24,234 nucleotides of DNA from Bifidobacteriaceae bacterium (GTDB taxonomy: Bacteria; Actinomycetota; Actinomycetes; Actinomycetales; WQXJ01). The notes under the pieces were generated by a model, which was given only the letters and a program-made list of their open reading frames with translations, was not told the origin of the DNA and did no database searches. The stretch covers positions 1-24,234 of the forward strand of contig JAISCU010000204.1 in the NCBI GenBank assembly GCA_031265345.1, read 5' to 3'. A program made the translations under genes and the position numbers. Shown piece by piece: positions 1,646-21,509 of this stretch (the first letter of the stretch is position 1; each line of letters starts with the position of its first letter).

Positions 1646-1684
1646 AGCTGGCGCGGCCTGCGAGAAGGCCCCGGTCCCCAGCGG

Positions 1685-2194: not shown

Positions 2195-2229
2195 TTTCCC
2201 ATCGTACTGAGCCAACCTGGCGCAGCCGG

Positions 2230-3735: not shown

Positions 3736-3903
3736 AAAACCGCAGGTCAGAGGCCTTTCCCCAGGGTGGGCGGCCGGTGTCTGGCTCACCGGGCAGGGCA
3801 CCTCGTCCGGCCGTCGCGGGCGCCGGCGGGCACCTTGCCCAAAGCGGGCCCCGCCCGCCGAACCGATCCCGTTCTCACCGCGGCCTTTGAAGGAGCGCCC
3901 GTC

Positions 3904-4452
3904 ATGACAACACCACCCTGGACGCCGGACCAACCCGACGTGTGCGTAACAGCCGACCACGACGGGGCGCTGACCGTCGAGTTGCGGGGCAGCCCCTACG
4001 CCCTGCCCGACACCGGAATGGGGCGCCGCGAGCAGATGGGCCGCCTGTTGGACCACTTCTGCCAGCTGCTCGGCGTCCCGTTCCAAGCCCGCGTCGTCGA
4101 GGCCGACGGGACCGTCCACCAAGGATGGGTGCCCGACCAGCGCGCCGCCGAACTCGCCCCGCCGGCGTGGCAGGCCGCCGCCCAGCCAAGCTATGACGCC
4201 AGGCATGTCGCCGCCCAGCCGGCGGCAGACGGCGGCGCCGGCGAGCCCGTCCTGATCGGCGGGGACGGGTTCATCCCCGGCGAGCAAGTCGCGTTCGCCG
4301 TCGTTGTGGCGGAGACTGCCGCCCAACCGGACGGGACCGCGCTGATCGAACTGCCGGCCGGGTACATCCGGGAACTGCCTTGCGGGGAGATCGCGCTGAT
4401 CGGCCGCGTGTCGGGGACGCTCGCGGTCCGGCAACCGGGCCGGCAGCTGTGA
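3904..4452 (+). CDS. Conserved-position hypothetical protein of the conjugation operon
   Basis: Protein of 182 aa starting at ATG 3904. The start is chosen for the AAGGAG at 3889-3894, nine bases upstream; the open frame extends further but without a better signal. I do not recognise a named domain. An N-terminal module (residues 13-80) alternates beta-like segments (VCVTADHDGALTVELRG) with a helix, REQMGRLLDHFCQLLG. A linker rich in Ala and Gln follows, then a second beta-rich module (residues 115-182) ending in ELPCGEIALIGRVSGTLAV. No signal peptide or membrane segment is visible. Its stop overlaps the GTG of the coupling-protein gene by four bases, so translation of the two is coupled and it is probably an accessory transfer protein. 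Confidence 0.75.
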   Translation: MTTPPWTPDQPDVCVTADHDGALTVELRGSPYALPDTGMGRREQMGRLLDHFCQLLGVPFQARVVEADGTVHQGWVPDQRAAELAPPAWQAAAQPSYDARHVAAQPAADGGAGEPVLIGGDGFIPGEQVAFAVVVAETAAQPDGTALIELPAGYIRELPCGEIALIGRVSGTLAVRQPGRQL

Positions 4453-8471: not shown

Positions 8472-8666
8472 TCAGGCGGCCTTCCTCGTCGGCGCTTTCA
8501 GGCACGCCTCCTCGAACGCCTCCACATCGGAGCGACGGTAACGCACAATCCCGCGCATCTTCAAATAGGCCGGCCCGTAACCCAAGCTGCGCCAATGCGC
8601 CAACGTCGTCAAAGGAACCCCCCAACGCTCCGACAACTCCACCGCCGTCAACGAAACCCCGCACAT
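8472..8666 (-). CDS. xis: Excisionase / AlpA-like helix-turn-helix protein
   Basis: Protein of 64 aa read from ATG 8666 to the stop at 8472. The whole protein is a winged helix-turn-helix of the MerR/HTH_17 type: SLTAVELSERWGVPLTTLAH, then WRSLGYGPAYLKMRG and IVRYRRSDVEAFEEA. Such small proteins next to a tyrosine integrase act as recombination directionality factors or as regulators of excision. AAGGAGA lies just upstream; a GTG two codons earlier (8672) is an equally possible start. The gene diverges from the integrase gene, and the roughly 95 bp between them must contain both promoters. Confidence 0.82.
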   Translation of the reverse strand: MCGVSLTAVELSERWGVPLTTLAHWRSLGYGPAYLKMRGIVRYRRSDVEAFEEACLKAPTRKAA

Positions 8667-8763
8667 GTCCACTTGTCTCCTTCCAGTCGCAGGGGAAGAC
8701 GCGGCGCACCTTCCCGGCAACCAGGTGCAACAACGACACCCGGACAACCACCAGGAGGACGCG

Positions 8764-10044
8764 ATGGCACGCGCGTGGGTCGAAGACCGCTGGAACGACG
8801 CCGCCGGCAACCCGTCGGCGCGGCACGGCACCGGGTCGCGTTGGCGGGTGCGCTGGCGGGAGAACACCGACGACGGCCCCCGCCTGCGCGACAGAGCCTT
8901 CCCCAAGAAATCCGACGCCGAGGAATTCGCCGCCAAAATCGACAACGACCTGCGCGCCTCCGTCTACCGCGACCCCGACCTCGGCAAAACCCCGTTCAAG
9001 GAAGTCGCCGAGCAATGGCTCGCCACCCACCTGTCGATCAGGGACTCGACCGCGCTGCGCTACGAACGCGAACTGCGCATGTACACCCTCCCGAAGTTCG
9101 GGCGCCGGGAGATCAACACCATCACCCGCGCCGAGGTCGCCAACTGGGTCGCCGACCTGCACCACGGCCGTGCCCGGGCCCGGTACAAGATCAGGGGCAC
9201 CAACCCGCCTGAATACCGGCCAATCCAGCGGATGCGGAACCCGCTCGGCGCGTCCTCGATAGAGCACATCATCGTCAACCTCGGCGCGATCATGAAATGG
9301 GCGCTCGTCGAAGGCCGCATAGACCGGAGCCCCGTCGTCGGCCTGTCGCTGCCCAAGACCGAATCCGAAGAGCACGTCTACCTCACCCACGCCCAAGTCA
9401 GAGACCTCGCCGAAGCCGCCGAACAGGTCTCAAGGGAACACCAAGACGCGGTCCTCGTCTACGCGCTCGCCTACACCGGGATGAGGATCAACGAAGCGCT
9501 CGCCGCGAAAACCGGAGCCCTGGACCTGCCAGGCCGCAAACTCCGGATAGTCAAGACCTGGACCCAAGACAAGAACGGCGCCCGGGTGCTCGGGCCGCCG
9601 AAAAGCCACGAACGGCGCACCGTCCCGCTGACCGCGCACCTCGCCGAAGAACTGGCGGCCCTCGTCAAAGACGCCGCGCCGGGGGACTTCATCTTCCAAG
9701 CCAAACGCGGCGGCCCGATCCACGACCACAACTGGCGGCCCAGAGTGTGGGACAAAGCCGTCGAACAAGCCGGCCTCGAAGGCCTCGGCCTGACACCCCA
9801 CAAAATGCGCCACACCGCCGCCTCGGCAGCCATAGCCGCCGGAGCCGACGTCAAAGTCGTCCAGCAAATGCTCGGCCACGCATCCGCCGCCATGACGTTG
9901 GACGTGTACGGGCACCTCTGGCCGAACCGCCTCGGCGAAGTCGCCGACGCCATGGAACAAGCCCGCCGCAAAGCCCTCGCCCCGCCCCCGCCGACCCCTG
10001 TTGAGCGTCGCTTGGTTCGACGGTGTTCGGGTCTCGCGTTCTGA
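8764..10044 (+). CDS. int: Tyrosine recombinase / integrase with transposon-altered C-terminus
   Basis: Protein of 426 aa starting at ATG 8764, with a near-perfect AGGAGG at 8753-8758. It contains an N-terminal arm-binding AP2-like region (GSRWRVRWRE, about 25-32), a core-binding SAM-like domain (residues 75-185) and a catalytic domain. Catalytic residues are visible: R241 in TGMRINEAL, K280 in GPPKSHERRTVPL, H346 and R349 in TPHKMRHTAA, H372 in LGHAS and Y382 in LDVYGHL. It would integrate and excise the conjugative element at the tRNA-Pro 3' end found at 13471. The 3' end is interrupted: from codon 412 the reading frame runs into a transposon and ends 14 residues later. All catalytic residues lie upstream of the insertion, so activity may be retained. 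Confidence 0.9.
   Translation: MARAWVEDRWNDAAGNPSARHGTGSRWRVRWRENTDDGPRLRDRAFPKKSDAEEFAAKIDNDLRASVYRDPDLGKTPFKEVAEQWLATHLSIRDSTALRYERELRMYTLPKFGRREINTITRAEVANWVADLHHGRARARYKIRGTNPPEYRPIQRMRNPLGASSIEHIIVNLGAIMKWALVEGRIDRSPVVGLSLPKTESEEHVYLTHAQVRDLAEAAEQVSREHQDAVLVYALAYTGMRINEALAAKTGALDLPGRKLRIVKTWTQDKNGARVLGPPKSHERRTVPLTAHLAEELAALVKDAAPGDFIFQAKRGGPIHDHNWRPRVWDKAVEQAGLEGLGLTPHKMRHTAASAAIAAGADVKVVQQMLGHASAAMTLDVYGHLWPNRLGEVADAMEQARRKALAPPPPTPVERRLVRRCSGLAF
9994..9998. repeat. Target-site duplication, left copy (ACCCC)
   Basis: These five bases directly abut the left transposon end. The same five bases directly abut the right end at 13308-13312. Confidence 0.85.
9999..10026 (+). repeat. Left terminal inverted repeat of the transposon
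   Basis: It begins TGTTGAGCGTCGC. Aligned without gaps to the reverse complement of the right end, 16 of the first 27 positions match, with runs GTT, CGTCGC and GACG. A related TCGC...CTGACGA motif recurs just inside, around 10033-10047, as expected for multiple transposase-binding sites. Confidence 0.75.
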
Positions 10045-10109
10045 CGACGGCGGGGGTGGCGCGGGGCTGGGGGCCGCCGTCATGATTGTGGCGACCCGCT
10101 AGACGAGAC

Positions 10110-10150
10110 GGGCCCGCCGGCGCAACCGTTTGAACCGCGCCGGCGGGCCC
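10110..10150. other. Perfect 14-bp inverted repeat before the helper gene
   Basis: The arms at 10110-10123 and 10137-10150 are exact complements around a 13-nt loop. It lies inside the transposon, between its left end and the first gene. It has no T run, so it may block read-through from the integrase gene or act as an operator. The function is inferred from position only. Confidence 0.6.
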
Positions 10151-10174
10151 TGACGCGCATAGGAGTGCGCGCTG

Positions 10175-10849
10175 ATGCTGACCGTAGCCGCAGAACCCGC
10201 CGTTGTCGAGGCGCTGCTCGCCGTCTGCTGGCTCTGCTGCCCGGACGCCGCCTGCCAGGGGACGCTCCGCCCGTGGGGATGGGCGCGCCCGCGGGTCGTC
10301 GAGGCCGGGCTCGACGGGCGCGGCTCGCACAGGGTGCGGCCGGTCCCCCGCCGGGCCCGCTGCGACGCGTGCCGGAGGACGCACGTGCTGCTCCCGGACG
10401 GGTTCTTGTCCCGCCGCGCGGACTCCGGGGCGGTGATCGGGCGGGCCGTCGAACTCGCCGCCGCCGGGCACGGCCACCGGAAGATCGCCGCCGCGCTGGG
10501 CCGGCCCGCGTCCACGGTCCGCGGCTGGCTGCGGTCCGCGCGGGCGGCGGCCGCGGCCGGCACGGGCGCGTTGCGGGCCGTCGCCGCGCAGGTCGCCCCG
10601 GACGCGGCGGCCGTGAATCCGAAGCCCGCCGGCACGCCCCTGGGGGATCTGGTGGCGGCGCTGTCCGCCCTGGCGGCCGCCGCCGGCGCCCGTGAGCGGC
10701 GGCAGGAGACGGCGCCGTGGCACTCGGCGGGCGCGGCGGCGTGCCGGTGCCGGCTGTTCCAGGCGTCTTGGTGGGCCGGGACCGCGCAACACGAACTGGC
10801 CCTTACGCCCGCGTGGCTGGCCCGGGCAGGCTCGGCCCGGGGCCCGTGA
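10175..10849 (+). CDS. DUF6431-like zinc-ribbon/HTH transposon helper
   Basis: Protein of 224 aa starting at ATG 10175, with AGGAG at 10161-10165. The N-terminal part has paired cysteines (CWLCCPDAAC near residue 20 and CDACRRTH near 67), forming a probable zinc ribbon, with LRPWGWARPRVV between them. A helix-turn-helix follows (GHGHRKIAAALGRPASTVRG, residues 98-117), then an Ala-rich helical tail. This layout matches DUF6431 proteins that accompany rve transposases and AAA ATPases in actinobacteria. It probably binds DNA, either the transposon ends or the target; that role is inferred. The gene is separated from the transposase gene by 65 bp containing a perfect hairpin. Confidence 0.75.
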   Translation: MLTVAAEPAVVEALLAVCWLCCPDAACQGTLRPWGWARPRVVEAGLDGRGSHRVRPVPRRARCDACRRTHVLLPDGFLSRRADSGAVIGRAVELAAAGHGHRKIAAALGRPASTVRGWLRSARAAAAAGTGALRAVAAQVAPDAAAVNPKPAGTPLGDLVAALSALAAAAGARERRQETAPWHSAGAAACRCRLFQASWWAGTAQHELALTPAWLARAGSARGP

Positions 10850-10859
10850 GGCGGGCCCC

Positions 10860-10884
10860 GCGCCCCGGGAGCGTCCCGGGGCGC
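10860..10884. other. Perfect 11-bp hairpin between helper and transposase genes
   Basis: Arms 10860-10870 and 10874-10884 are exact complements with a 3-nt loop. There is no T run. It may attenuate transcription or protect the transcript between the first and second transposon genes; the role is inferred. Confidence 0.55.
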
Positions 10885-10914
10885 CTCCAGCGAACCCGGA
10901 GAGGGGAAGAGGCG

Positions 10915-12366
10915 ATGACGGAGCAGGTTTCGAGGTCCGAACGGGCCGACCGGACGGCGATGTGGCGGTGGGGGGTGATCCGCGACGCGATAGACCCGGA
11001 GCTGACCGCGAAACAACGCGGCCAAGTGGTGCGCCGGGTCGCGGCCGGGGCGCACCCCGCGCCCGGCGGCGGGACCCGGACCGTGTCGCGGGAGACCGTG
11101 GACAGGTGGGTGCGGGCGTGGCGGGCCGGCGGCCTGATGGCGTTGCGCCCGTCGGGCCGCCAGTCCGCGCCGCGCACCCCCCGAGAGGTGCTGGACACGG
11201 CGGCCGCGTTGAAGCGGGAACGGCCGGACCGGACCGCGGCGCAGGTCCGACGCGTCATGGTCCGGGCGTGCGGGGACGCGCCCAGCGAGTCGACCCTGCT
11301 CAGGCATTTCAGGCGCCTCGGTTTGAACACCGCCCCGCCGCCGGGCGCGCACGGCCGGTTCGAGGCGGACTTCCCGAACGAGATGTGGGTCGGCGACGCG
11401 TTGCACGGGCCGAAGGTCGCCGGACGGAAGACGTACCTGTTCGCGTTCATGGACGACCACTCCAGGTACGTGGTCGCCGCCCGCTGGGCGCACTCCGAGG
11501 ACCACGCGCGCCTCGCGATCGCGCTCCGGCCCGCGTTGGCCGCGCACGGCCTGCCCGGCGCGTTGTACCTGGACAACGGCGCCGCGATGGTGGACGGGGC
11601 GTTGGCCAGGGCGTGCGCCCGCCTCCAGATCCGGCTCACCCATTCGGCGCCGGGCCGCCCCCAGGGGAGGGGCAAGATCGAACGCTTCTTCAACACGGTG
11701 ACGAGCCAGTTCCTCACGGAGGTCGCGCCCGCCGGCCAGGAGGAAGGGCCGGCGGGCGGCTCCAGAGTGTCGTCTTTGGAGGAGTTGAACGCGTTGTTCG
11801 ACGCGTGGCTCGAGCAGGTCTACCACAAGACCCCGAACGAAACGACCGGGCAGGCCCCCGCCGACCGGTGGAAGGCCGGGTGGGCGCGCGCCGAACCGCG
11901 CCGCGCCGCCCTGGAGCAGATCGCGGAGGCGTTCAAATGGTCCGAGGTCAGGAAGGTCCGCACGGACGCGACGGTCGTGCTGTTCGGGAACTCCTACGAG
12001 GTCGACCCGTCCCTCGTCGGCCGGCGGGTCGAGGTCGTGTTCGACCCCTACGAGATGGGCGGCCCCGTCGAGGTGTTGTCGGACGGGGAGGCGGCCGGGA
12101 CGGGCACGCCCGCGGTGATAGGCCGGCACGTCCACAAGAAAGCCGCCGCCGCGGCCCGCGACGAGCGCGGGGGGCCGGCGGGCGGCGCCGCGACCGGGAT
12201 CGACTATCTGAGGCTGTTGGAGGAGGACCGGCGCGGCGAGATCGCCCGCTCGGGGATCGCTTGGCGCGCCCTGTCCGACGGCGAGGCCGCGGCCGACTCC
12301 GCGGACGTGGACGGCTCCGGCCCGGACGACGGGGACGAGCCGTGGACCCAGGGGGCGCTGCTGTGA
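10915..12366 (+). CDS. DDE transposase, rve fold with Mu-type C-terminal domain
   Basis: Protein of 483 aa starting at ATG 10915 behind a purine-rich GAGGGGAAGAGG. Residues 30-135 are DNA-binding helix-turn-helix modules (QRGQVVRRVAAGAHP; SRETVDRWVRAWRAGGLMAL). The catalytic core begins near 150. The acidic triad is D161 (WVGDALHG), D220 (LYLDNGAAM) and E256 (GRGKIERFF), giving DD(35)E spacing. A C-terminal beta-barrel of the Mu transposase type is seen near 360-400 (VVLFGNSYEVDPSLVGRRVE). The enzyme cuts and joins the transposon ends, probably with the AAA protein choosing the target. Its stop overlaps the start of the ATPase gene. Confidence 0.88.
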   Translation: MTEQVSRSERADRTAMWRWGVIRDAIDPELTAKQRGQVVRRVAAGAHPAPGGGTRTVSRETVDRWVRAWRAGGLMALRPSGRQSAPRTPREVLDTAAALKRERPDRTAAQVRRVMVRACGDAPSESTLLRHFRRLGLNTAPPPGAHGRFEADFPNEMWVGDALHGPKVAGRKTYLFAFMDDHSRYVVAARWAHSEDHARLAIALRPALAAHGLPGALYLDNGAAMVDGALARACARLQIRLTHSAPGRPQGRGKIERFFNTVTSQFLTEVAPAGQEEGPAGGSRVSSLEELNALFDAWLEQVYHKTPNETTGQAPADRWKAGWARAEPRRAALEQIAEAFKWSEVRKVRTDATVVLFGNSYEVDPSLVGRRVEVVFDPYEMGGPVEVLSDGEAAGTGTPAVIGRHVHKKAAAAARDERGGPAGGAATGIDYLRLLEEDRRGEIARSGIAWRALSDGEAAADSADVDGSGPDDGDEPWTQGALL

Positions 12367-13175
12367 GCGTCGACAGGCTGCAGGCCCATTGGGGGCTGAC
12401 CCGGATGCCGTTCGGCAAGGACGTGCCCGTCGGGTCCCTGTCCCGGCACCGGTCGTTCCAAGAGGCCGTCGCCCGGGTGTCGTGGGCGGTCGCGCAGCGG
12501 CAGGTCGCGGTCGTCACCGGGGAGGTCGGGTCCGGGAAGACCGTCGCCGTGCGGGCCGCCCTGGCGGGCCTGGAGCCGGCCCGGCACCTGCCGGTCTACG
12601 TCCCGGACCCGACGATCACGCTCAGGGGCGTCCACTCCCAGATCACCGCGGCGTTGGGCGGGTCGCCGCAGTTCTACACGGGGATGCTCGCGACCCAGAC
12701 CGCCCGCCTGTTGGCGGGGGAGCTGGACGAGCGGGGCCGGCTCCCGGTCGTGGTGATCGACGAGGCGCACCTGCTGTCGAACATGGAGTTGGAGTCGTTG
12801 CGGATGCTGACGAACTGCTCCATGGACTCGGAGTCGACGTTCGCGTTGGTGCTGGTCGGGCAGCCGACCCTGCGGCGCCGGTTGAAGCTCGCGGTCCTCG
12901 CCGCGTTGGACCAGAGGGTCGGGGTCCGCTGCCAGATGGCGGGGATGGACCCGGCCGAGACGGCCGACTACGTGAAGGCGCATCTGGCGTGGGCGGGCCG
13001 GACGGAGCTGCTGTTCGCCGACGACGCCCTGGCGGAGATCTGGCAGGCGTCCCGCGGGCGTCCCCGGGCGGTGAACAACCTCGCCACTTCGGCGATGGTC
13101 GCGGCCTATGCGGCGGGGAAGGCGATAGTGGACAAGGAGTGCGCGGTCGCGGCTGTCGTCGAGGACGGCGAATAG
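12363..13175 (+). CDS. AAA ATPase of the transposon (ExeA/TniB-like)
   Basis: Protein of 270 aa starting at GTG 12363, overlapping the transposase stop by four bases. It begins LQAHWGLTRMPFGKD, as ExeA-type ATPases do. Walker A is GEVGSGKT (53-60), Walker B is VVVIDEAH (129-136), a sensor segment reads LVLVGQPTLRRRL, and the C-terminal part has RGRPRAVNNLATSAM. In Mu and Tn7/Tn5053 relatives the AAA partner (MuB, TnsC, TniB) selects and marks the target and stimulates the transposase. The tight coupling supports that role here. No separate target selector such as TniQ/TnsD is present. Confidence 0.88.
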   Translation: MSVDRLQAHWGLTRMPFGKDVPVGSLSRHRSFQEAVARVSWAVAQRQVAVVTGEVGSGKTVAVRAALAGLEPARHLPVYVPDPTITLRGVHSQITAALGGSPQFYTGMLATQTARLLAGELDERGRLPVVVIDEAHLLSNMELESLRMLTNCSMDSESTFALVLVGQPTLRRRLKLAVLAALDQRVGVRCQMAGMDPAETADYVKAHLAWAGRTELLFADDALAEIWQASRGRPRAVNNLATSAMVAAYAAGKAIVDKECAVAAVVEDGE

Positions 13176-13219
13176 CGGCGGCGCCGCCGTCAGCGTGGCG
13201 GCCGGCCCGGCAAGACGAC

Positions 13220-13250
13220 GAAGGGGCCCCTTCCGGGGGCCCCTTCTTCA
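13220..13250 (+). terminator. Hairpin terminator after the transposon ATPase gene
   Basis: A perfect 11-bp stem (13220-13230 with 13236-13246) with a 5-nt loop begins 45 bases after the stop codon. The tail TTCTTCA is only partly T-rich, so termination strength is uncertain. It lies inside the transposon. Confidence 0.7.
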
Positions 13251-13279
13251 TGCCCGCGTTGGCGCCCTGGGTGACGCCG

Positions 13280-13307
13280 AGATCGTCAGATTAGGCGACG
13301 GCTAACG
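13280..13307 (-). repeat. Right terminal inverted repeat of the transposon
   Basis: Read on the minus strand it starts CGTTAGCCGTCGC and matches the left end at GTT, CGTCGC and GACG in register. It differs from the left end in its first base (C instead of T). Confidence 0.75.
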
Positions 13308-13312
13308 ACCCC
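13308..13312. repeat. Target-site duplication, right copy (ACCCC)
   Basis: Identical to 9994-9998 and immediately outside the right transposon end. Confidence 0.85.
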
Positions 13313-13349
13313 CGCCCAGCGGCCACCCGGCCCGGCGATGGGAATGTGA
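13313..13349 (+). pseudogene. Severed 3' end of the integrase gene
   Basis: Joining codon 411 and the first two bases of codon 412 (9997-9998) to base 13313 keeps the frame and reads AQRPPGPAMGM, then TGA at 13347. This is the probable native C-terminus of the integrase before transposon insertion. It is no longer translated with the gene. Confidence 0.7.
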
Positions 13350-13384
13350 CACGATGCCGTCCGTTGCGTCTCGTGGCCGATCCC

Positions 13385-13406
13385 ATGTGGGCCAAATGTG
13401 GGCCAC
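13385..13406 (+). repeat. Paired 11-bp direct repeats, likely integrase arm sites
   Basis: The units ATGTGGGCCAA (13385-13395) and ATGTGGGCCAC (13396-13406) are adjacent and differ in the last base only. They start 86 bases left of the tRNA-like core. Position and the 11-bp period suit arm-type binding sites of a tyrosine integrase. Confidence 0.65.
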
Positions 13407-13470
13407 CGCCCATTTCCAGCCAACAGGCCAACCCGAGAACCAGCGTTTCCGCTGGCCACGGCCTCACAAA

Positions 13471-13502
13471 GTCGGGGTGGCGGGATTTGAACCCACGACC
13501 TC
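13471..13502 (-). other. Attachment site: 3' end of a tRNA-Pro (fragment)
   Basis: On the minus strand this reads as a T-arm and acceptor 3' strand: GAGGTCGTGGG, then TTCAAATCCC, then GCCACCCCGAC. It resembles the 3' end of actinobacterial tRNA-Pro. The D-arm and anticodon arm are absent to the right, so it is not a gene. Its place beyond the integrase, with repeats on both sides, identifies it as the att core of the conjugative element. The 10-mer TTTCCGCTGG occurs on both sides (13446-13455 and 13521-13530). Confidence 0.8.
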
Positions 13503-13635
13503 TTCCTCGATCCAGGGGGTTTTCCGCTGGTTTCGAGCTCTTGCGAATTGCTGCGGATTGTGGCTTTGACCTGGGAAAACAGGGGTCCTTTGAGGGCGCC
13601 GGAGTTGCGGCTGGATGCGGGGTCTGGCCGTTCTC

Positions 13636-13657
13636 ATACGGTCCAAATACGGTCCAC
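13636..13657 (+). repeat. Second pair of 11-bp direct repeats, right of the att core
   Basis: ATACGGTCCAA (13636-13646) and ATACGGTCCAC (13647-13657) are adjacent. They share the A-T-N-N-G-G-N-C-C-A pattern and the AA/AC alternation of the last two bases with the left pair at 13385. They are probably arm-type sites on the other side of the att core. Confidence 0.6.
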
Positions 13658-13792
13658 GCAGCGGCCGCCCGCTGAGGGTGTGACAGGCGTTCCGGCGTCG
13701 CCCGGAGGAGGCCGCCGTCGGGGCGGCGGCACCCCCGTTGAGGGGCACCGCCCTTGAAGGCGTGCGCCCAACTGTCGGAGATTTCTCGGGTG

Positions 13793-13915
13793 CCCTATTT
13801 GCAAGCGTCAGGTTTCGTCGCGCGTGCAAATAGGCGCTCATCAGCGTAGACGCCCGCCGCTCGTGGCCTGGACCGCGCTAAGCGGAACGGTTTCGTCGCC
13901 GCGTTGCAAATAGGG
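13793..13915. repeat. Three copies of a TTGCAAATAGGG motif with a TTTCGTCGC leader
   Basis: The first copy is inverted (13793-13804). The second (TGCAAATAGG, 13825-13834) forms a perfect 10-bp inverted pair with it. The third (13904-13915) is direct. Copies two and three are each preceded by GGTTTCGTCGC and lie 79-80 bp apart. The function is unknown: possibly recombinase or regulator binding sites, or part of a small RNA ending at the terminator at 13930. Confidence 0.6.
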
Positions 13916-13929
13916 TCACGGCTTCGGGT

Positions 13930-13957
13930 CGCCCAGCGCCCACACTGGGCGCGTTTT
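13930..13957 (+). terminator. Orphan rho-independent terminator (+ strand)
   Basis: A 7-bp stem CGCCCAG/CTGGGCG (13930-13936 with 13945-13951) with an 8-nt loop is followed closely by TTTT. No + strand gene precedes it between the att core and this point. On the minus strand there is no T run, so it does not serve the NYN gene. It could end a small RNA or be left from a lost gene. Confidence 0.55.
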
Positions 13958-14085
13958 CGTCCCCCTTCGCAGGCCAACCCGTCGTGGCGGAGCTTGGTTC
14001 GGCGGCCCACAGCGGTCCGGTTGACTCGTCTCCAACCGGCGCGCCCCCGCGGCCCCAAGGCGCCAGCGCTGGGCGGGCAGGGCCG

Positions 14086-14724
14086 TCATGGAGCCGGGTT
14101 CGCCGGCGCCGACCATTTCGCCGGACGCGTATAAGACCAGGGCCCATCGAGCACCGTGTCCGGGAGTTGGGCCTGGCGGATCTTGGCTTCCCCGATCACG
14201 AACGACGCTGGCAGGGCGGCCCGGATGCGTTTCGAGACGCGTCCAGGCGGGAAGGCACCGACCAGGCGAACCCCGGGGGCGGCGGCCTGCGCGATCCGTA
14301 TGGCCGGCAGGTAGTCGGCGTCCCCGGACACCACCAGCGCGTCGTCCATCCGCGCCAGGATCGCGTCGGCCACAAGTTGGGCGCCGACATGCACGTCGGT
14401 CTCCTTCTCCTCGTAGGCGACCCGTTTGTGCCCGCAGTTCTCGCACAGGTGCGAGCGCCGCTGGTAGCGGCCGGTCTGAATTCTCAGCACGCCCGGGCTC
14501 GCGGCCGCCAGGGCTTTGAGGTAGTTCTGCTGGCGGGACTGGGCATCCGGCGACTCGACTGTCATCGCGGTGTAATAGTTGACGCGCACAAGGTCGCTGG
14601 CCGGCCTGAGCGCGCGGATGAGGCCCACCACGTCGAGCCACAGCCAGCGGTGCCCCATCGTCTGGCGCAGGCCATGGTAGAGATTCAGCCCATCGATATA
14701 GGCGATCAATCGTCGGCCGGGCAC
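14086..14724 (-). CDS. NYN-domain (PIN-like) putative ribonuclease
   Basis: Protein of 212 aa read from GTG 14724, with AAGGA about seven bases upstream. NYN/LabA-type motifs are in order: AYIDGLNLYHGL near the N-terminus (metal-binding Asp), EEKETDVHVGAQLVADAIL in the middle, and DDALVVSGDADYLPAIRIA with two further acidic residues. A CENCG knuckle before the second motif suggests a small metal site. The fold is that of a metal-dependent RNase; the substrate is unknown. It stands alone between two tRNA-Pro fragments, so it is probably cargo of a decayed element. The upstream region on its strand has TAGGCT about 16 bp after TCGAAC, a possible promoter. The start is also supported by the conserved RLIAYIDG segment only five residues in. 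Confidence 0.85.
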   Translation of the reverse strand: MPGRRLIAYIDGLNLYHGLRQTMGHRWLWLDVVGLIRALRPASDLVRVNYYTAMTVESPDAQSRQQNYLKALAAASPGVLRIQTGRYQRRSHLCENCGHKRVAYEEKETDVHVGAQLVADAILARMDDALVVSGDADYLPAIRIAQAAAPGVRLVGAFPPGRVSKRIRAALPASFVIGEAKIRQAQLPDTVLDGPWSYTRPAKWSAPANPAP

Positions 14725-14756
14725 CGGGGGTCCTTGTCTCTAGCGCAGCTTCAAGA

Positions 14757-14855
14757 CCGCCCCGAAGGGGCGGCTGGCATGGTAGCCTACCGGTATCACC
14801 ACCACGTTCGAGAGAGCGTGGCCCGACGGCCCTCCGCACCGGGGGGCCGTTTTTT
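14757..14855 (+). promoter_or_regulatory. Attenuator-like leader with a short His-containing ORF
   Basis: In order on the + strand: a 7-bp hairpin (14757-14763 with 14767-14773) that covers a ribosome-binding-site-like AAGGGG; an ATG at 14779 opening MVAYRYHHHV with three consecutive His codons; a 5-bp hairpin (14802-14806 with 14817-14821); and a terminator (14826-14855). This is the layout of a transcription attenuator. The gene it would control is missing, since an integrase remnant follows. His codons could be coincidental, so the regulatory reading is an inference. Confidence 0.4.
14826..14855 (+). terminator. Strong rho-independent terminator (+ strand)
   Basis: An 8-bp stem ACGGCCCT/GGGGCCGT (one T-G wobble) with a 9-nt loop is followed by six T residues. 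No intact + strand gene lies upstream. Confidence 0.8.
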
Positions 14856-14889
14856 CGTGATCCGCTGTGCGTCGCGATCTGGGGGATCA

Positions 14890-15135
14890 GCCAACCCCGT
14901 CGCGCTGACTGCCAGGGGTCCGGGCGCGGGGACGGCGGCCGGCGTCGAGGCCGCCCAGCAGGAGCTCGGACACGCCTGTGCCGCGGTGATGTTGGACGTC
15001 CGTGGGCGCCTCTGGCCGTCGCGCCTCGGCGGGGTCGCCACCATGGAAGCCGCCGAATCCGCAGCTTCCCGGCCAGCCCCCCGAACGCCGCCCATTCCGG
15101 AATCGACACGTGAACGCGCGTCGGCAGATGCGAGC
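14890..15135 (+). pseudogene. Decayed 3' remnant of a second tyrosine integrase
   Basis: The + strand translation contains VEAAQQELGHACAAVMLDVR and then GRLWPSRLGGVATMEAAESA. This aligns without gaps to the intact integrase segment VKVVQQMLGHASAAMTLDVY, then GHLWPNRLGEVADAMEQARR. The DNA is similarly collinear between about 14938 and 15060. The catalytic tyrosine is replaced by arginine and the catalytic Arg/Lys region upstream is absent, so it is a dead C-terminal fragment. It precedes the second tRNA-Pro fragment just as the intact gene precedes the first. The frame is open well beyond the homologous part, to 15180. The boundaries given are approximate. Confidence 0.75.
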
Positions 15136-15148
15136 GGCGTTGGATGGC

Positions 15149-15170
15149 ATGTGCAACCAATGCGCAATCC
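15149..15170 (+). repeat. Degenerate paired 11-bp repeats left of the second att copy
   Basis: ATGTGCAACCA (15149-15159) and ATGCGCAATCC (15160-15170) match each other at 8 of 11 positions. They begin 86 bases left of the second att core, the same offset as the clear pair at 13385 from the first core. Confidence 0.5.
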
Positions 15171-15234
15171 CAGCCGGTAGAGCGAAGAACGAGGGCCCCC
15201 GCCCCGGCGTTTCCGCAGTTCAAAACCCTGGCGC

Positions 15235-15266
15235 GTCGGGGTGGCGCGTTTTGAACCCACGACCCC
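15235..15266 (-). other. Second, degenerate tRNA-Pro 3' end (old attachment site)
   Basis: It matches the core at 13471 over GTCGGGGTGGCG and TTTGAACCCACGACC, with differences in the T-loop region. It has no tRNA body. The 10-mer GCGTTTCCGC lies exactly 28 bases to its left (15207), as it does for the first copy (13443). Confidence 0.75.
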
Positions 15267-15353
15267 TTGCGCCTCTTGGTTCCGCTTCGACTCGCATAGG
15301 GGGTCTTGTTCAGTGAGCCGAGCTGGCGGTCGACAGCGCGTGACGCGCGGGTC

Positions 15354-16637
15354 CTACGGTGGCCCTGCGGGGTTCTTGAAGGCCACCGGCAGTTGGCGCA
15401 CAGGAAGAAGCAACTTGCCGGCGATGCTTCCCTGCACTCCGATGAAGGTTGCGGTCCACTCGACCTCGACGGCATCAGCCGCTGTGTCGACCGCGGCGAC
15501 CACGAGTTCGTCGTCATCGCTCTCCCACGGCTGGCCGGGGCGCAGCGCCTCGGGTTTGACGGTAACCAGCAGCGCTTCCGCGTTCCCGTTCCGCCAGTCC
15601 GTGTCAGGTCGACTCGGCGGGGCCGAATAGTGGGGAGAGTGGTCGAGCACGACCGAGCCCAGTTCCGTGGGGTCGCGTGGCACGGGGAAGGCCCGATTCC
15701 AAAAGTCGTCGGCCGGGTCCTCCCAATAGAATCCCTGCGTGCCGTGGAAGGTGAGCACGATCTGAGGCTTCTCGAGGGGTGCCGTTCCGGGGCCGCTGCT
15801 TGCTCTGATCTTGATGCCGTCGCCGAGCGCCCCGATCAACAGCTCGCGGCGCTCGGGCCAGTCTTGGCGCCGGTCCTCCTGCCATTTCGCGATGAACGCC
15901 GCAGCCTCCTTCGGCGGGAGGCGGCCGGAAAGCATGCCCAAGTCCATCACGCTCCACGGGCTTTTCGGCTGTGGAGCGTGATGCGCGAGGAACTTGTCGC
16001 GCTCCTTGCGGATGTGCCTCGAGTTGAAAACGTCCAGGTCGGGCAACTGGTACGCGGTTCCGAGTACCTCGACTACGATCTCAGGGTCTTGAGGTGCTTG
16101 CCCAAACCGTTTGAGCCTCTCTGCCATCTCCTCGTGGTTGGCCTCTTCGGTTTTGCCGTTCCTTCGGACATATACGGCCCCGGACCTGGCCTTTTGCCCA
16201 GAGGCCTTGCACACGTGGATCCGGCCCGGTTCGGGCGAGTCGACCTCGAAGACCAGCACACCGGAGTCGCCTTGGTCGCGGGCGATCCAGTGCAGCGCCC
16301 ATCGCGGCCCGCTCTCGCCGAGGTACTTCTCGAGTCCTTGTTGCGCGTCGGCCGGATCGACCCGTGCGGCGCCACTCGGGTGTCCGTCGTCGCCAATTCC
16401 CACCAGCGCGACTGCCGCCCCGTCGAGGTGGGCCGCGGCGTGCTCTGGGAGCCGGTTCGCCGCGCCGAGCACGAACCTGGCGACGGCGGACCAGCCTTCT
16501 TTTGACGGCAACTGGATGTCGGACTTGAACTCGAGCCAATCGGATTCGCCCAAGCCGTCGTCAGACAGGACCCAATCGACAAACTCGCCCCAGGCCCTCA
16601 GTCCAACTGGGCGCCTTGCCAGATCGAAGCCGCTCAA
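15354..16637 (-). CDS. Schlafen AlbA_2-domain protein
   Basis: Protein of 427 aa read from TTG 16637; an in-frame TGA three codons earlier (the stop of the preceding gene) forces this or an internal start. Residues 30-175 form an AlbA_2 domain: ESDWLEFKSDIQLPSKEGWS, VARFVLGAANR, a central VALVGIGDDG, GVLVFEVDSPEPGRIHVCK and GAVYVRRNGKTEEA. AlbA_2 is a divergent nucleic-acid-binding or nuclease-like fold found in Schlafen-type proteins, transcription regulators and several phage-defence proteins. The remaining 250 residues are soluble and unrecognised, with WNRAFPVPRDPTELGSVVL and a beta-rich end. It follows the membrane protein gene by six bases, so the two are translated together. The GC content is lower than in the conjugation genes. 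Confidence 0.8.
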   Translation of the reverse strand: MSGFDLARRPVGLRAWGEFVDWVLSDDGLGESDWLEFKSDIQLPSKEGWSAVARFVLGAANRLPEHAAAHLDGAAVALVGIGDDGHPSGAARVDPADAQQGLEKYLGESGPRWALHWIARDQGDSGVLVFEVDSPEPGRIHVCKASGQKARSGAVYVRRNGKTEEANHEEMAERLKRFGQAPQDPEIVVEVLGTAYQLPDLDVFNSRHIRKERDKFLAHHAPQPKSPWSVMDLGMLSGRLPPKEAAAFIAKWQEDRRQDWPERRELLIGALGDGIKIRASSGPGTAPLEKPQIVLTFHGTQGFYWEDPADDFWNRAFPVPRDPTELGSVVLDHSPHYSAPPSRPDTDWRNGNAEALLVTVKPEALRPGQPWESDDDELVVAAVDTAADAVEVEWTATFIGVQGSIAGKLLLPVRQLPVAFKNPAGPP

Positions 16638-16643
16638 GGGTGG

Positions 16644-17237
16644 TCACTCGCTCTCCTGTGGCGGCTCCGGCTCGAGAGGAGAAATCTTCTTGCTGACGGC
16701 GTCGATGGCCAGTTTCACCTGGTGCAGGCTCCCCGAAGGCTGGTCGCGCGATTCGCGGACAAGTCCGAGGTCGATGACGTAGGAAAGCGGGGAAACCGGT
16801 CCCCACGGGCCGTCGGCGGTCACCTCCACCTTGTGCTTGTATTCGCGTTCGAGATCTGCGAGCATCTGGCTGCCGATGCCGAGATACCACCTGACCTGGA
16901 CGTTTGGCGCGATAGACGGGATGCCCTCACGGAGCCGCTCTTCGGCCACGCGGGTGATGTCCCGAGAGCCGTAGGTCAGCGCCAGTGGCGGGTCAATCCG
17001 AGCTTTGACGTTGCGGGCCAGAGTCGGCCCGGAATTGCCGACTACGAGATCAAGCGCTGAGCCTTGCGCGTCGTCCAGTCTGACGTCGACCCAGACGTAG
17101 GGCTGGACGGCTTCGCGGGCGATCCGGGTCTGCCGGTTCAGGTTCCGCTGTGACTGCCACAACGCGAGGTACGAGGACGTGACGCCCAGAAAGGCGAGCG
17201 CCACCCCCGCCAGAGTTGTCCACTCGCCAGCGTTCAC
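16644..17237 (-). CDS. Membrane-anchored hypothetical protein paired with the AlbA_2 gene
   Basis: Protein of 197 aa read from GTG 17237. Residues 7-27 are a transmembrane helix (WTTLAGVALAFLGVTSSYLA) followed by a basic, Gln-rich stretch. Then comes a beta-rich domain beginning VQPYVWVDVRLDDAQGSALD and LVVGNSGPTLARNVKARIDP, which resembles an immunoglobulin-like sandwich. A short helical end, LHQVKLAIDAVSKK, precedes an acidic Pro/Glu tail. I do not recognise a named family, although proteins with this anchor-plus-sandwich layout are common in bacteria. It is first in a two-gene operon with the AlbA_2 gene. Its layout recalls the antisense protein at 6197-6943 (one N-terminal helix, then a domain with an N-x-G-x3-A signature). 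Confidence 0.75.
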   Translation of the reverse strand: MNAGEWTTLAGVALAFLGVTSSYLALWQSQRNLNRQTRIAREAVQPYVWVDVRLDDAQGSALDLVVGNSGPTLARNVKARIDPPLALTYGSRDITRVAEERLREGIPSIAPNVQVRWYLGIGSQMLADLEREYKHKVEVTADGPWGPVSPLSYVIDLGLVRESRDQPSGSLHQVKLAIDAVSKKISPLEPEPPQESE

Positions 17238-17648
17238 GGCTTTGAGCCTAACGCCTGGTCCGCTTCGGCGCGCTCGGCGCAGGGGTAGCGCGTCGGGCGT
17301 GCTGGTCTGGCCGACCGATGTCCGCGGTGGACCCGTCGATCCCTTCGACCAGAGGGCCGGGATACAGGCGGCAGGCCGCCCGGTCGCGCTTGAGCGCCGG
17401 CGGTCGGCAAGGCTGTGGGAGTACCCGCCAGAAGGCGAGGTGCTCGGCGCGAAGCTGAACGCACAGAACCGCCTGCGGCGCGAACGGTCCCCGCCTGCGG
17501 TTGGGGAGGGCCGCGCACTTTCCGCGTGTCAATTGGCCCCGACCGCGCCCGACGCCTCCTGCCCGGCTCCGGCGCGACGGTCCGGGGCCGCAGCCAGCAG
17601 GCGCGCCCCCGGGAGGGGGCGGCCGGGGACCAGGAAAGGCGCGAGCCG
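17238..17648. other. 411-bp divergent intergenic region
   Basis: It separates the minus-strand membrane protein gene from the + strand surface protein gene and must contain promoters for both. The GC content is high. AGGAAAGG at 17632-17639 is the likely ribosome binding site of the surface protein. The open frame of the surface protein continues upstream to 17415 but encodes Arg/Gly-rich sequence without conserved character, so I exclude it. I see no clear promoter, RNA gene or terminator. Confidence 0.45.
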
Positions 17649-20600
17649 ATGGAGCAAGCAGCGAGCCACCCGAGACACATCCAACACGACCGGAAGAGAG
17701 CGCGCGGCCGGGGGCTGGGCCGCCGTTTCTGGGCGGGTTTGGCGGTGTTGTGTTTGGCCGTGTCGGCGTTGTTCGGGGCGGGGGCGGCGGGTCCGGCTGT
17801 GGCGGCTGACCACGGGCCGGGGTATTGGGCGGACGGAACGTTCCTGGGGATCACGTATTTCCCGAACGGGCCGGGGATTTGTTTGAACAACGGGGCGGCT
17901 GTGAACTCGTCGGTGACGGACACCCGGGTGGTGGAGAACCGGATGGCGGGGTTCATGGTGTGGTACCTGTGGGACAGGGCTTTGACGGACGCGGACGCGG
18001 CGGCGGCGTTGGCGATGCTGTTGAAGAACATCGCGGACCAGATGGTGGACACGGGCGGGGTCGCGGACGACCACATCGAGTGGTCTGATCTGACGGTCAG
18101 GTCGCAGGAGATCGCCACGGACGCGAACTACGCGTGGGCGGTCTACAACGGCTGGAACGCCGCGACCCCGTCCACCGTCCAGGCACCCGCCGTGTCCGTG
18201 AAGACCACCGTGGAGACAGGCGACGTGGACATGGTCTCCGGCGAGATCACGTTCAAACAGATCGGGCTGAAAGCCGGCGGCGGCGCGGGGTTCTTGTTCC
18301 CGTACTCCGGGGGCGGCGCGTCGGCGTATTACCAGCCGTTGTTGGAGGAGATCGGCTCGCCGACGTTGACGTTGTCGGGGCCGGCGGTGTTCAAAGCCAA
18401 CGGGCGGACCACCTACACGCCGCCGGCCGCGCCGGCCGGGGGCCTGGGGGACGCGTCGAGGGCGGCGGTCGCGGTCCCGACTGGGTTCGGCGGGTCGGAG
18501 AAGGTCGTGTTGACGGTGGCGTACGAGGTTCCGTCGGCGAGGGTGGAGATCGCGTTGCGGGAGTCGCCCGCCCATCAGAACTACATCCTGAGGCCCCTGG
18601 GGGAGGACGTGGTGAAGGCGTCCACGAAGGGCGTGGTCCCGGTCAAGGCCGCGGAGATGACCGCCACATCGGCGATGGTCCCGGTCGAGGTGAAACCGGG
18701 GGACTCCCCGTCGAAGCTGCGGGACTTGATCACGGTGGCCGCGAAGACCGGCGCCTGGCCGAAGGAGATGGGCACGGGTGAGCCGGTGCCAATCGTGTTC
18801 CGGTTCACGCTGATGCGCCACCCGCAGCCGGCGCTGTCGTTCGGGTCGAAGACGGGCGACCAGGTGGCGTCGCTCACCAGGGTGTTCACAGGGCCGGGGT
18901 CGTGGACGCTGACGGCGGCGGACCTGCCGGCGGGGGTGTGGGAGTCGATCGCGGACGGGTCGGAGACGGCGAGGCAGGCGTACTCGGTCACCACGCAGGC
19001 GTTGAGGGCGGACCAGCCGGCGGCGACCCGCCCGTATCTGGCGGCGGACTTCACCGACGGGTGGGGGCTGGCGCAGGAGACGTTCACCCGTGTCACCCCC
19101 CTGATCGGGTTGGAGACCAAGGCGGAGGGGTCGGTGCACGTCGGCGGTCTGCTCTCGGACGAGGGGACTATATCGGGGGTGCCCGCCGGGCACGGGTCTT
19201 TCGCCGGGGCCGGGACCAGGTTCGCGGCGGACGCGACCGTGTTGACGATGACGCTGTGGGAGGTCGACCAGGCGGTCGTGGAGGCGCTGCCGCGCGGCAC
19301 GACGGCGCCGCCCGCCTCCGCGGTGAAGGTCAAGTCGTACGAGGTGCCGCTTGAGAACGGGGACTTCCAGGTGGGCCGGGACGTTGCCGCCCGGGAGGCG
19401 GGGATGTGCTACGTGTGGCACGCGACATACCCGGGCGACACGTGGCTGGCCGCGTACAGCTCCGACTTCGCGGACCCGTGGGAGCGGCAGTGCGCTCCCC
19501 AGCCGGGGAAGCCGTGGGTCGCGTCGGTCGTGTCCGAGCCCGTCGCGGACGCGGGCGCGCTGGTGCGGGACCGCGCCGAGTGGGGCGCCGCCCCCGCCGG
19601 GTCCACGGTCGAGTTCTGGGCGCGGACCGCTCCGGTCAAAGACCTGTTCAAACCGTCCTCGGAGTGGGAGTGCGACCTGGCGAAAGCCACAGCCCCGGCG
19701 CGGGTGGGCGATCCCGTCGCCGTGGCCGGGGAGGCGGGCGCGGCCTGGTCGAACCCGGTGGAGGCGGGCCCGGCCGGGTGGTGCGTCCTGTTCCAGGTGG
19801 TGTTGAAAGACAAGGCCGGCGCCGTGTTGGCGGAGGGCGTGTGGGGCGACCCCGCAGAGACGGTCATGGTCCCGCCCGTCCCGAAGATCGCCTCCCAAGT
19901 CGCCGCCCCGGTGGCCGACGCGGGCGGGCTGGTCCGCGACAAGGCGATCTGGGAGGGCGCGCCGTTCGGCGCGAAGGTCGTCTTCGAGACCCGGACCGCG
20001 CCGGTGAAAGACCCGAGACTGCCGGTCGACCGGTGGGAATGCGACCTGAACGCTATGGGCGCGCCCGCCGCCGCGGGGTCGGCGCAGCCGGTCGGCTCCT
20101 TGGACGGCGAGACGCTGTCCCCCGAGGTGGAGGCGCCGGAGGTGGGCACTTGCCTGCTGTGGCGGGAGGTCCTCCTCGGCCCGGACGGCCGGGAGACCGC
20201 GTCCGGGCAGTGGGGAGAGCCGTCCGAGACCACCCTGGTGAAAGCCGCGCCCGCGGTCACCACGGAGGTGGTGGAGTTGGTCGTGGACGCCGGGGCGGCC
20301 GCCCAGGACAACGGGTCTTGGACCGGCGCGCCCGCCGGGTCCACCGTCGAGTTCCAATACCGGGTCGCGCCGGTCAAGGACGCGAAGCTGCCGGTCGACC
20401 GGTGGGAGTGCGACCTCGACCAGATGGGCGATCCTGCCCCCGCCGGCGGCCCCTGGCCCACCGACGCGCACGAGGGGTCCCGCCTGTCCGACCAGATCGC
20501 GGTCAGCGAGGCGGGCGTGTGCGTCCTGTTCAGGGAGACCCTCCGCGGCCACGACGGCGCGGTGCTGGCGGAGGGCGAGTGGGGAGACGAAGGCGAGACC

Positions 20601-21509
20601 GCCTACGCGAAGGCGCCGCCCGCGGTCGCCACCGAGGTGGTGGAACTGGTTATCGACGCGGGGTCGGCCGCCCAGGACGACGGGTCTTGGACCGGCGCTC
20701 CCGCCGGGTCGACAGTCGAGTTCCAACACCGGCTCGCGCCGGTCAAGGACGCGAAGCTGCCGGTCGACCGGTGGGAGTGCGACCTCGACCAGATGGGCGA
20801 CCCCGCCCCCGCCGGCGGCCCTTGGCCGACCGACGCACACGAGGGGTCGCGCCTGTCCGACCAGATCGCGGCCGCCGAGGCGGGCGTGTGCGTGCTGTTC
20901 AAGGAGATCCTCCGCGACAAGGACGGCACCGTGCTGGCGGAGGGCGAGTGGGGCGACCCGTCCGAGACCGTGTACGTGAAAGCCCCGCTGGCTGTGGCCA
21001 CCCGTGTGGTGGAGTTGGCGGTGGAGGAGGGGTCGGCCGCCCAGGACGACGGGTCGTGGACCGGCGCGCCGGCCGGGTCCACGGTCGAGTTCGAGTACCG
21101 GGTCGCGCCGGTCAAGGACGCCGCCGTCCCGGCCGCGGAGCAGGAGTGCGACCTCGGCCGGATGGGGGACCCCGCCCCGGCGGGCGGCCCGTGGCCGACG
21201 GACGGCCACGAGGGGTCCCGCCTGTCCGACAAGGTCGAGACCGAGCAGGCGGGCGTGTGCGTCCTGTTCAAACTGACACTCCGCGACCAGGGCAGACAGA
21301 TCCTCGCCGAGGGGAAGTGGGGCGACCCGTCCGAAACCGTCACCGTGGTGCCCAAACCGGCAGCTCCGCCGCCGGGGCTGCCGTTCACCGGGTCCAACCC
21401 GTGGCCGCTGGCCGGCGGCGCGGCCGCCCTGCTCGCCGCCGGCGCCGCGCTCGTGGCTGGGGGCCGCCGCCGCAACCGGCGGATCTCAACGGAAGGGGGC
21501 TTGCTGTGA
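17649..21509 (+). CDS. Sortase-anchored surface protein with five 123-residue repeats
   Basis: Protein of 1286 aa starting at ATG 17649, the start that places a signal peptide at the N-terminus: a basic region (HDRKRARGRGLGRR), a hydrophobic core (FWAGLAVLCLAVSALF) and a probable cleavage after AVA near residue 53. An N-terminal head domain (about residues 55-330) contains GPGICLNNGAAVNSS and a helical WYLWDRALTDADAAAALAML segment. A long central region (330-620) follows, then five tandem repeats (about 622-1236). The C-terminus has LPFTG, a hydrophobic helix and RRRNRR, a complete sortase signal. It should be a covalently attached wall protein, perhaps an adhesin that assists mating contact. 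Its stop overlaps the next start by four bases, so it belongs to the downstream operon. Cysteines in the head could form a thioester or disulfide, but I cannot show which. Confidence 0.85.
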   Translation: MEQAASHPRHIQHDRKRARGRGLGRRFWAGLAVLCLAVSALFGAGAAGPAVAADHGPGYWADGTFLGITYFPNGPGICLNNGAAVNSSVTDTRVVENRMAGFMVWYLWDRALTDADAAAALAMLLKNIADQMVDTGGVADDHIEWSDLTVRSQEIATDANYAWAVYNGWNAATPSTVQAPAVSVKTTVETGDVDMVSGEITFKQIGLKAGGGAGFLFPYSGGGASAYYQPLLEEIGSPTLTLSGPAVFKANGRTTYTPPAAPAGGLGDASRAAVAVPTGFGGSEKVVLTVAYEVPSARVEIALRESPAHQNYILRPLGEDVVKASTKGVVPVKAAEMTATSAMVPVEVKPGDSPSKLRDLITVAAKTGAWPKEMGTGEPVPIVFRFTLMRHPQPALSFGSKTGDQVASLTRVFTGPGSWTLTAADLPAGVWESIADGSETARQAYSVTTQALRADQPAATRPYLAADFTDGWGLAQETFTRVTPLIGLETKAEGSVHVGGLLSDEGTISGVPAGHGSFAGAGTRFAADATVLTMTLWEVDQAVVEALPRGTTAPPASAVKVKSYEVPLENGDFQVGRDVAAREAGMCYVWHATYPGDTWLAAYSSDFADPWERQCAPQPGKPWVASVVSEPVADAGALVRDRAEWGAAPAGSTVEFWARTAPVKDLFKPSSEWECDLAKATAPARVGDPVAVAGEAGAAWSNPVEAGPAGWCVLFQVVLKDKAGAVLAEGVWGDPAETVMVPPVPKIASQVAAPVADAGGLVRDKAIWEGAPFGAKVVFETRTAPVKDPRLPVDRWECDLNAMGAPAAAGSAQPVGSLDGETLSPEVEAPEVGTCLLWREVLLGPDGRETASGQWGEPSETTLVKAAPAVTTEVVELVVDAGAAAQDNGSWTGAPAGSTVEFQYRVAPVKDAKLPVDRWECDLDQMGDPAPAGGPWPTDAHEGSRLSDQIAVSEAGVCVLFRETLRGHDGAVLAEGEWGDEGETAYAKAPPAVATEVVELVIDAGSAAQDDGSWTGAPAGSTVEFQHRLAPVKDAKLPVDRWECDLDQMGDPAPAGGPWPTDAHEGSRLSDQIAAAEAGVCVLFKEILRDKDGTVLAEGEWGDPSETVYVKAPLAVATRVVELAVEEGSAAQDDGSWTGAPAGSTVEFEYRVAPVKDAAVPAAEQECDLGRMGDPAPAGGPWPTDGHEGSRLSDKVETEQAGVCVLFKLTLRDQGRQILAEGKWGDPSETVTVVPKPAAPPPGLPFTGSNPWPLAGGAAALLAAGAALVAGGRRRNRRISTEGGLL
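19512..21356 (+). repeat. Five in-frame 369-bp repeats in the surface protein gene
   Basis: Units start at 19512, 19881, 20250, 20619 and 20988; each is exactly 369 bp (123 codons). Conserved landmarks per unit are APAGSTVEF, APVKD, ECDL, a second Cys in CVLF, and LAEGEWGDPSETV. Every unit has two invariant cysteines, suggesting one disulfide per domain. Units three and four are nearly identical in DNA over long stretches, including more than 60 consecutive bases after the APVKD codons. Unit one is the most diverged. Confidence 0.9.

Follow-up and report, generated by a model that had tools for sequence, protein, structure and literature searches.

We analysed contig JAISCU010000204.1 of the Bifidobacteriaceae bacterium assembly GCA_031265345.1 over positions 1 to 24,234 of the forward strand, and we refer to this whole stretch of 24,234 nucleotides (nt) as the window. 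Our subject is a crowded attachment (att) region near its middle, in which two 3' fragments of a proline tRNA gene (tRNA-Pro) lie beside an integrase gene and the remnant of another. Both fragments are on the minus strand: core 1 at 13471-13504 and core 2 at 15235-15268 agree at 31 of 34 bases (91%), the remaining three being the only differences, and neither is followed by a tRNA body. The original prediction had described two such fragments, each preceded at 28 bases by the same sequence, at 86 bases by an 11-bp repeat pair and, further left, by the 3' end of an integrase gene, and every one of these observations was borne out. The sequence GCGTTTCCGC starts at 13443 and at 15207 (15207-15216), exactly 28 bases before its core in both cases, and has no further copy on either strand of the window. 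The tandem 11-bp repeats begin 86 bases before the cores, at 13385 (ATGTGGGCCAA/ATGTGGGCCAC, 10/11 matching) and at 15149 (ATGTGCAACCA/ATGCGCAATCC, 8/11 matching), so that the spacing of 1764 is common to cores, repeat pairs and GCGTTTCCGC. To the left lie the original 3' tail of one integrase gene, ending at 13349, and a remnant of another at 14908-15090. At core 1, GCGTTTCCGC forms the apex of the CCAGCGTTTCCGCTGG hairpin (13440-13455, plus strand), and in relatives such as the locus L014 this apex caps a longer hairpin that resembles a terminator. In our reading, GCGTTTCCGC caps a terminator-like hairpin and the 11-bp repeats are arm-type sites. The two ends of core 2 point in different directions: its CCCCTTG end resembles the tRNA-Pro(GGG) genes of related genomes, and its GTCGGGG start resembles tRNA-Pro(CGG). 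Core 2 may combine sequence from two isoacceptor sites, or it may simply have decayed. An RNA function for the core region was considered and rejected, the Rfam search of 13380-15300 having matched the tRNA-like core only weakly, to tmRNA; across the whole window, nothing reached the Rfam gathering threshold.

The integrase to the left of core 1 belongs to a presumed conjugative element that we call element A. Its gene (8665-10044, plus strand) encodes a tyrosine integrase (Pfam Phage_integrase PF00589, E 4e-27), and a scan of genome contigs with this protein gave 53 loci. The closest relative among them, at 83% amino acid identity, is L001 in the Bifidobacteriaceae metagenome-assembled genome (MAG) Gsp477_bin183. 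L001 has the same integrase tail, an 11-bp repeat at -86, GCGTTTCCGC at -28 and a tRNA-Pro core, which is the 3' part of an intact tRNA-Pro(CGG); 35 nt of core 1 (13471-13505) are identical to it. It differs from the window in having its core on an intact tRNA and in its arm word, ATGTACGCAT; its contig is 3.7 kb long, and the other end of the element lies beyond it. Exact GCGTTTCCGC was present in 14 of the 53 loci, and in 13 of the 24 loci read, a repeat of 11-bp period above the program's threshold lay 69 to 100 bases ahead of the tRNA or core. The anatomy extends to other tRNA genes: L002 (tRNA-Lys) has the repeat at -89 and GCGTTTCCGC at -28, and L014 and L015 (tRNA-Glu) have the repeat at -90 and, at -31, GCGTTTCCGC capping a hairpin that runs into T's. 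The tRNA-Pro core pattern, allowing up to 3 mismatches, occurred in 18/18 genomes of the family of L001.

A chance resemblance, or a scatter of pseudo-tRNA repeats, would have the shortness of the motifs in its favour and nothing further. When the DNA left of core 2 was dinucleotide-shuffled 3000 times, GCGTTTCCGC never fell at -28, and a repeat of at least 8/11 fell at -86 in 11 shuffles; as background, such repeats occur at 102 of 24212 window positions. Three features stand at identical offsets; L001 repeats them, and other loci do so at slightly shifted positions. Because L001 has the same offsets, we consider chance untenable and regard it as refuted.

The integrase gene of element A stands beside its att site, from which only a transposon separates it. 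This two-gene unit of about 3.3 kb (9999-13306, plus strand) has replaced the final codons of the integrase and displaced the original tail to 13313-13349, where it is still in frame and ends in MGM-stop like that of L001. GACCCC borders the transposon on both sides (9993-9998 and 13307-13312), and units that match it at 80% and 77% nucleotide identity, and that end at almost the same points, are found in genomes G003 and G013. It encodes a DDE transposase of IS481/Mu type (10717-12366, best NCBIfam match IS481) and an AAA ATPase (12363-13175, best NCBIfam match a PEP-CTERM-system ATPase), both matches being below the cut-off. Close relatives of the transposase were seen in G003, G013, G010 and G005. 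With a DDE transposase and an AAA ATPase lying between integrase and core, a guide-RNA-directed transposon was considered; we rejected it because the unit is a separate insertion, bounded by ends of its own and recurring elsewhere at 77-80% identity, and because the core layout is of integrase type. The recombinase domain of integrase A (residues 239-418) precedes the insertion point, and we infer that the enzyme still recognises its own arms. The P-arm repeat of element A, at 13385-13406 (plus strand), carries the word ATGTGGGCCA in two copies.

Core 1 has arm-type repeats on both sides, at 13385 on the left and at 13636 on the right, whereas core 2 has them on the left side only. The right-hand repeat of core 1 (13636-13657, plus strand) consists of two copies of the word ATACGGTCC, matching at 10/11, and lies at +165, in the position of a P' arm. 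The same word serves as the P' word of an element end in G002:C116 (+164, 18/20) and, in G013:C64, lies next to an integrase remnant within the P zone (15/16). A third att site at 13717, where GTCGGGG occurs near the 13636 repeats, was rejected because its offsets, judged by eye, do not fit and because 13636 suits the P' position of core 1. Further right, CCCTATTTGCAA/TTGCAAATAGGG form inverted repeats over 13793-13915 with a middle copy at 13825; the interval holds CCTATTTGCA/TGCAAATAGG in three copies, in direct and inverted order, which were not found in the other loci compared and which may represent either a set of operators or a short repeat that was inserted. A gene for a NYN-domain protein (14086-14724, minus strand; Pfam NYN, E 1e-8) lies between the two element ends. 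The second integrase survives as a C-terminal remnant (14908-15090, plus strand) with 52% amino acid identity to residues 384-445 of integrase A (tblastn, E 4e-10), and 14973-15268 aligns with gaps, at 67% nucleotide identity, to an integrase 3' end plus core in G013:C64. Its P-arm repeat at 15149-15170 has the word ATGYGCAAYC in two imperfect copies. Tandem accretion, in the sense of at least two same-orientation cores that lack a tRNA body and each bear the signature of an integrase end, is thus found at 13471 and 15235.

Stacks of the same kind exist in other genomes. The longest series comes from Amycolatopsis vancoresmycina NRRL B-24208 (G025), where four same-orientation cores at 152125, 154397, 167376 and 180773 span 28.6 kb. 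An integrase precedes each of the last three cores: the first is fragmentary and matched in pieces (a 2.3-kb element), the second element has a near full-length related integrase and the third a distant one. In G010:C59, a core with the word ATGTGCCCAAA on its left is followed after 5.95 kb by an intact tRNA-Pro, and the 5.95-kb element has the word GGTGACAAYCA at both ends. In G013:C64, 15.2 kb separate two cores that lack a tRNA body, and this segment has AAGTGGACAGT at each end. The reference stacks of G010 and G025 end on one side in an intact tRNA. In G026:C3, tRNA-Pro cores at 345163 and 361249, 16 kb apart, have clear but different arm words at their ends; this is a candidate for a second fusion of the kind discussed below, or an exception to the matching of words. 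At L123 (G001:C349), an integrase is cut at about residue 218-230, directly before a tRNA-Pro core that has a three-copy AGTGGACACCA P' repeat on its other side; we take this as another damaged stack, in the nearest relative. A possible empty site in G002 (C116 versus C181) supports no claim, merely 128 bp being in common. A conserved position next to purA was also dropped: the gene is beside tRNA-Pro in L001, and otherwise, among 36 loci of which most extend only 1.5 kb from the core, it was found only in G013, 7 kb away.

We conclude that the region is very probably a tandem att array of tyrosine-integrase elements, all using the 3' end of one tRNA-Pro gene. An assembly artefact is highly improbable. 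Such an account would have the metagenome assembly mis-joined at the 35-bp core common to several element ends; shared cores would be natural points for this, and the nearest relative is itself a MAG. The A. vancoresmycina elements are nevertheless stacked likewise within one 1.28-Mb contig, and core 2 bears private changes.

To assign ends to elements, we compared arm words across 13 reference att pairs, namely 12 neighbouring same-orientation core pairs on one contig and the attP of pDJL3, the only record used out of 100 that a plasmid search with integrase A returned, all below 60% identity. Each pair was scored by the best 20-base match between the P and P' zones of the same element. The scores of own pairs sum to 217, against a permuted mean of 164 (standard deviation 7), and none of 20000 permutations scored as high; in 10 of the 13 pairs, the own P and P' words agree at no fewer than 15 of 20 bases. 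P' repeats of at least 8/11 accompany 14 of 19 reference core fragments and 3 of 29 intact tRNA-Pro sites, after L124 (no core at the pattern limit) and L117 (no P'-zone sequence) were dropped. Five reference stacked junctions have 8/11 repeats on either side; there the facing words match at only 12-14/20, two of the five resting on 8/11 repeats that may be chance (the P' side of L111 and the P side of L150). Among 19 integrases with a readable tRNA or core alongside (171 pairs; the L011 translation had two stops, kept as X), word similarity correlated with identity of the N-terminal domain at r 0.61 and with that of the rest of the protein at 0.56. With kinship controlled only through the identity of the remaining protein, the partial correlation was 0.31 for the N-terminal domain and 0.12 for the rest, and 0 of 5000 permutations, which do not preserve kinship, reached 0.31. 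L002 (tRNA-Lys) and L011 (tRNA-Pro) illustrate this: their N-terminal domains are 59% identical and the remainder 43%, and they have a word in common (17/20). Arm words thus track the N-terminal domain of the integrase and differ between stacked neighbours.

Applied to the window, these comparisons bear first on the 1.76 kb between the cores. Its left word, ATACGGTCC, and its right word, ATGYGCAAYC, agree at 12/20, which is the background mean. The original prediction of two related elements inserted in succession, the right one decayed, therefore holds in part: stacking at one tRNA gene is upheld by the layout in L001 and by the stacks elsewhere, while a single decayed element as the right-hand member fits poorly with 12/20 when 10 of 13 reference pairs reach at least 15/20. 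Two fused elements, not a single decayed one, probably make up the DNA between the cores. In our model, each integrase end would consist of the integrase 3' end followed by a P-arm pair, then the hairpin and then the tRNA core; the P-arm pair would be an element-specific word at 11-bp spacing near -86, and the far (P') end would repeat that word some 120-170 bp past the core. Core 1 would then join the P end of element A to the P' end of an element B1, and core 2 would be the P end of an element B2 whose integrase has been cut down to the remnant. A deletion would have fused B1 and B2, leaving 1.76 kb between the cores. We propose this fusion because the two words differ while reference elements usually carry one word at both ends. 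We also infer the order in which the elements inserted. The array in the window holds at least three element ends with different short recognition words.

That the segment is, after all, one element whose arm words drifted apart by decay seems unlikely to us. Its integrase is indeed reduced to a remnant, 3 of 34 core positions have changed, and G025 offers a comparable 2.3-kb element with a fragmentary integrase. The words are, however, consistent inside each pair (10/11 at 13636, 8/11 at 15149) while the ends agree at 12/20; independent decay would not alter both copies alike, and the G025 mini-element retains matching words (18/20).

A further alternative concerns core 1, which might be the attP of element A in a circle or head-to-tail dimer, with the left half of A on the right side and core 2 as a lone fossil. 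In its favour, 15/20 bases agree between the P word of element A and the P' word right of core 1, the right flank resembles conjugative-element DNA, and pDJL3 is a circular record carrying such an attP. Set against this, the positions that distinguish the two words are the same in each copy, element ends in G002 and G013 also bear ATACGGTCC, and the core-2 remnant is left unexplained; we judge the alternative improbable, more so than decay of a single element.

Several observations weigh against the fused array, or blunt the evidence for it. The 15/20 likeness just mentioned lies at the 95th percentile of unrelated pairs and equals the weakest matching reference pair (G022), so a link between element A and the 13636 end is possible. 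Three of the 13 reference pairs are unmatched (G026 at 10/20, the third element of G025 at 13/20 and G019:C41 at 13/20), and word mismatch alone is therefore no proof of fusion. In 7 of 13 rows the own pair strictly outscored all others; for G020, G022 and the second element of G025, a word from another element tied with it or did better. On its right side core 2 showed no P' repeat, the best match being 7/11; values below 8/11 also occur at 5 of 19 reference fragments. An intact tRNA-Pro is absent from the 24,234-nt window, ARAGORN calling none anywhere in it. Finally, an integrase match at 1e-40 appeared in only 1 of 18 genomes of the family of L001, that of L001 itself.

The remaining genes fall on either side of the array. 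The conjugation genes of element A (182-6224, plus strand; Pfam and NCBIfam) comprise an SCO6880-family protein (182-1645), a VirB4-like ATPase (2230-3735, NCBIfam match below the cut-off) and a VirD4-like coupling protein (4380-6224), which passes the Pfam cut-off with an NCBIfam match below its own. Close homologues in the same order occur in G013:C104 and G013:C75. No relaxase was found among the 16 window open reading frames (ORFs) scanned against Pfam, the left part of element A lying beyond the window. To the right of core 2, where the element border is uncertain because no recognisable P' repeat is present, five genes occupy 15354-23796. They encode an AlbA_2-like protein (15354-16637, minus strand; match below the Pfam cut-off), a protein of no assigned family (16644-17237, minus strand), a large surface protein with repeated segments and, read by eye, an LPFTG-type end (17640-21509, plus strand; no Pfam match), a further protein of no assigned family and a DNA methylase (plus strand, ending at 23796). 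The sole ARAGORN call in the window, a tRNA-Trp at 18107-18188, falls within the surface-protein ORF and is probably spurious. Among the 18 genomes of the family of L001, the AlbA_2-like gene has one relative (41%), in G012:C11, where it adjoins a TrwC relaxase gene, and a relative of the methylase adjoins VirD4 in G005:C175. These neighbours suggest that the right flank is probably conjugative-element DNA. Viral contigs gave no AlbA_2 relative, two integrase loci (33-37% identity) and one weak methylase locus, and 15269-17300 had no DNA match at 1e-3 among the loci collected for comparison.

Arrays of this type have precedents. The available text on Frankia places Fean5518 and Fean5534 in tandem in a tRNA-Lys gene, from which they excise separately and together (PMC3218068), and passages on a Streptomyces tRNA-Arg hotspot describe one to three elements plus a remnant (PMC9513070). 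As far as these texts describe them, such accretions of integrative and conjugative elements, including those of actinomycetes, resemble the window in combining several elements with their own integrases, one tRNA-derived direct repeat and remnants; the window differs in its use of tRNA-Pro, in the VirB4/VirD4-type conjugation genes of element A and in a middle piece that looks fused (PMC3218068, PMC9513070). The available text of the former contains no word beginning with 'arm', and the passages from the latter do not mention arm sites. The closest parallel in att anatomy comes from Cluster K mycobacteriophages such as CrimD and Pixie, for which the portion available describes 11-bp arm-repeat pairs flanking the core and a putative stem-loop terminator between the core and an arm; Pixie and Tweety have the core in common and not the arm sequences (PMC3203893). 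Those are phages, and the arm pairs of CrimD are inverted to each other where those of the window are direct; unlike the Cluster K attP as presented there, the window has several such sites side by side in one genome (PMC3203893). The anatomy and the stacking are thus already known, and what the window adds is a revised account of the middle piece and an idea about arm words that can be tested. Among the titles and abstract openings searched, none linked arm words to stacking, and such work may exist.

We offer that idea tentatively, as a possibility that we hold to be somewhat doubtful. Arm words may act as address codes: at a shared tRNA core, the integrases of this actinobacterial family would read different 11-bp-spaced words through their N-terminal domains, and stacked neighbours could therefore excise independently. 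Hybrids made by deletion fusion would carry mismatched words and be trapped, hence the persistence of remnants such as 13471-15235. Stacking in tRNA genes is one route by which genomic islands grow, and the integrase family in the window provides a test case for what stops one stacked element from excising another. In a crowded site, arm words are also an aid in assigning each end to its element of origin.

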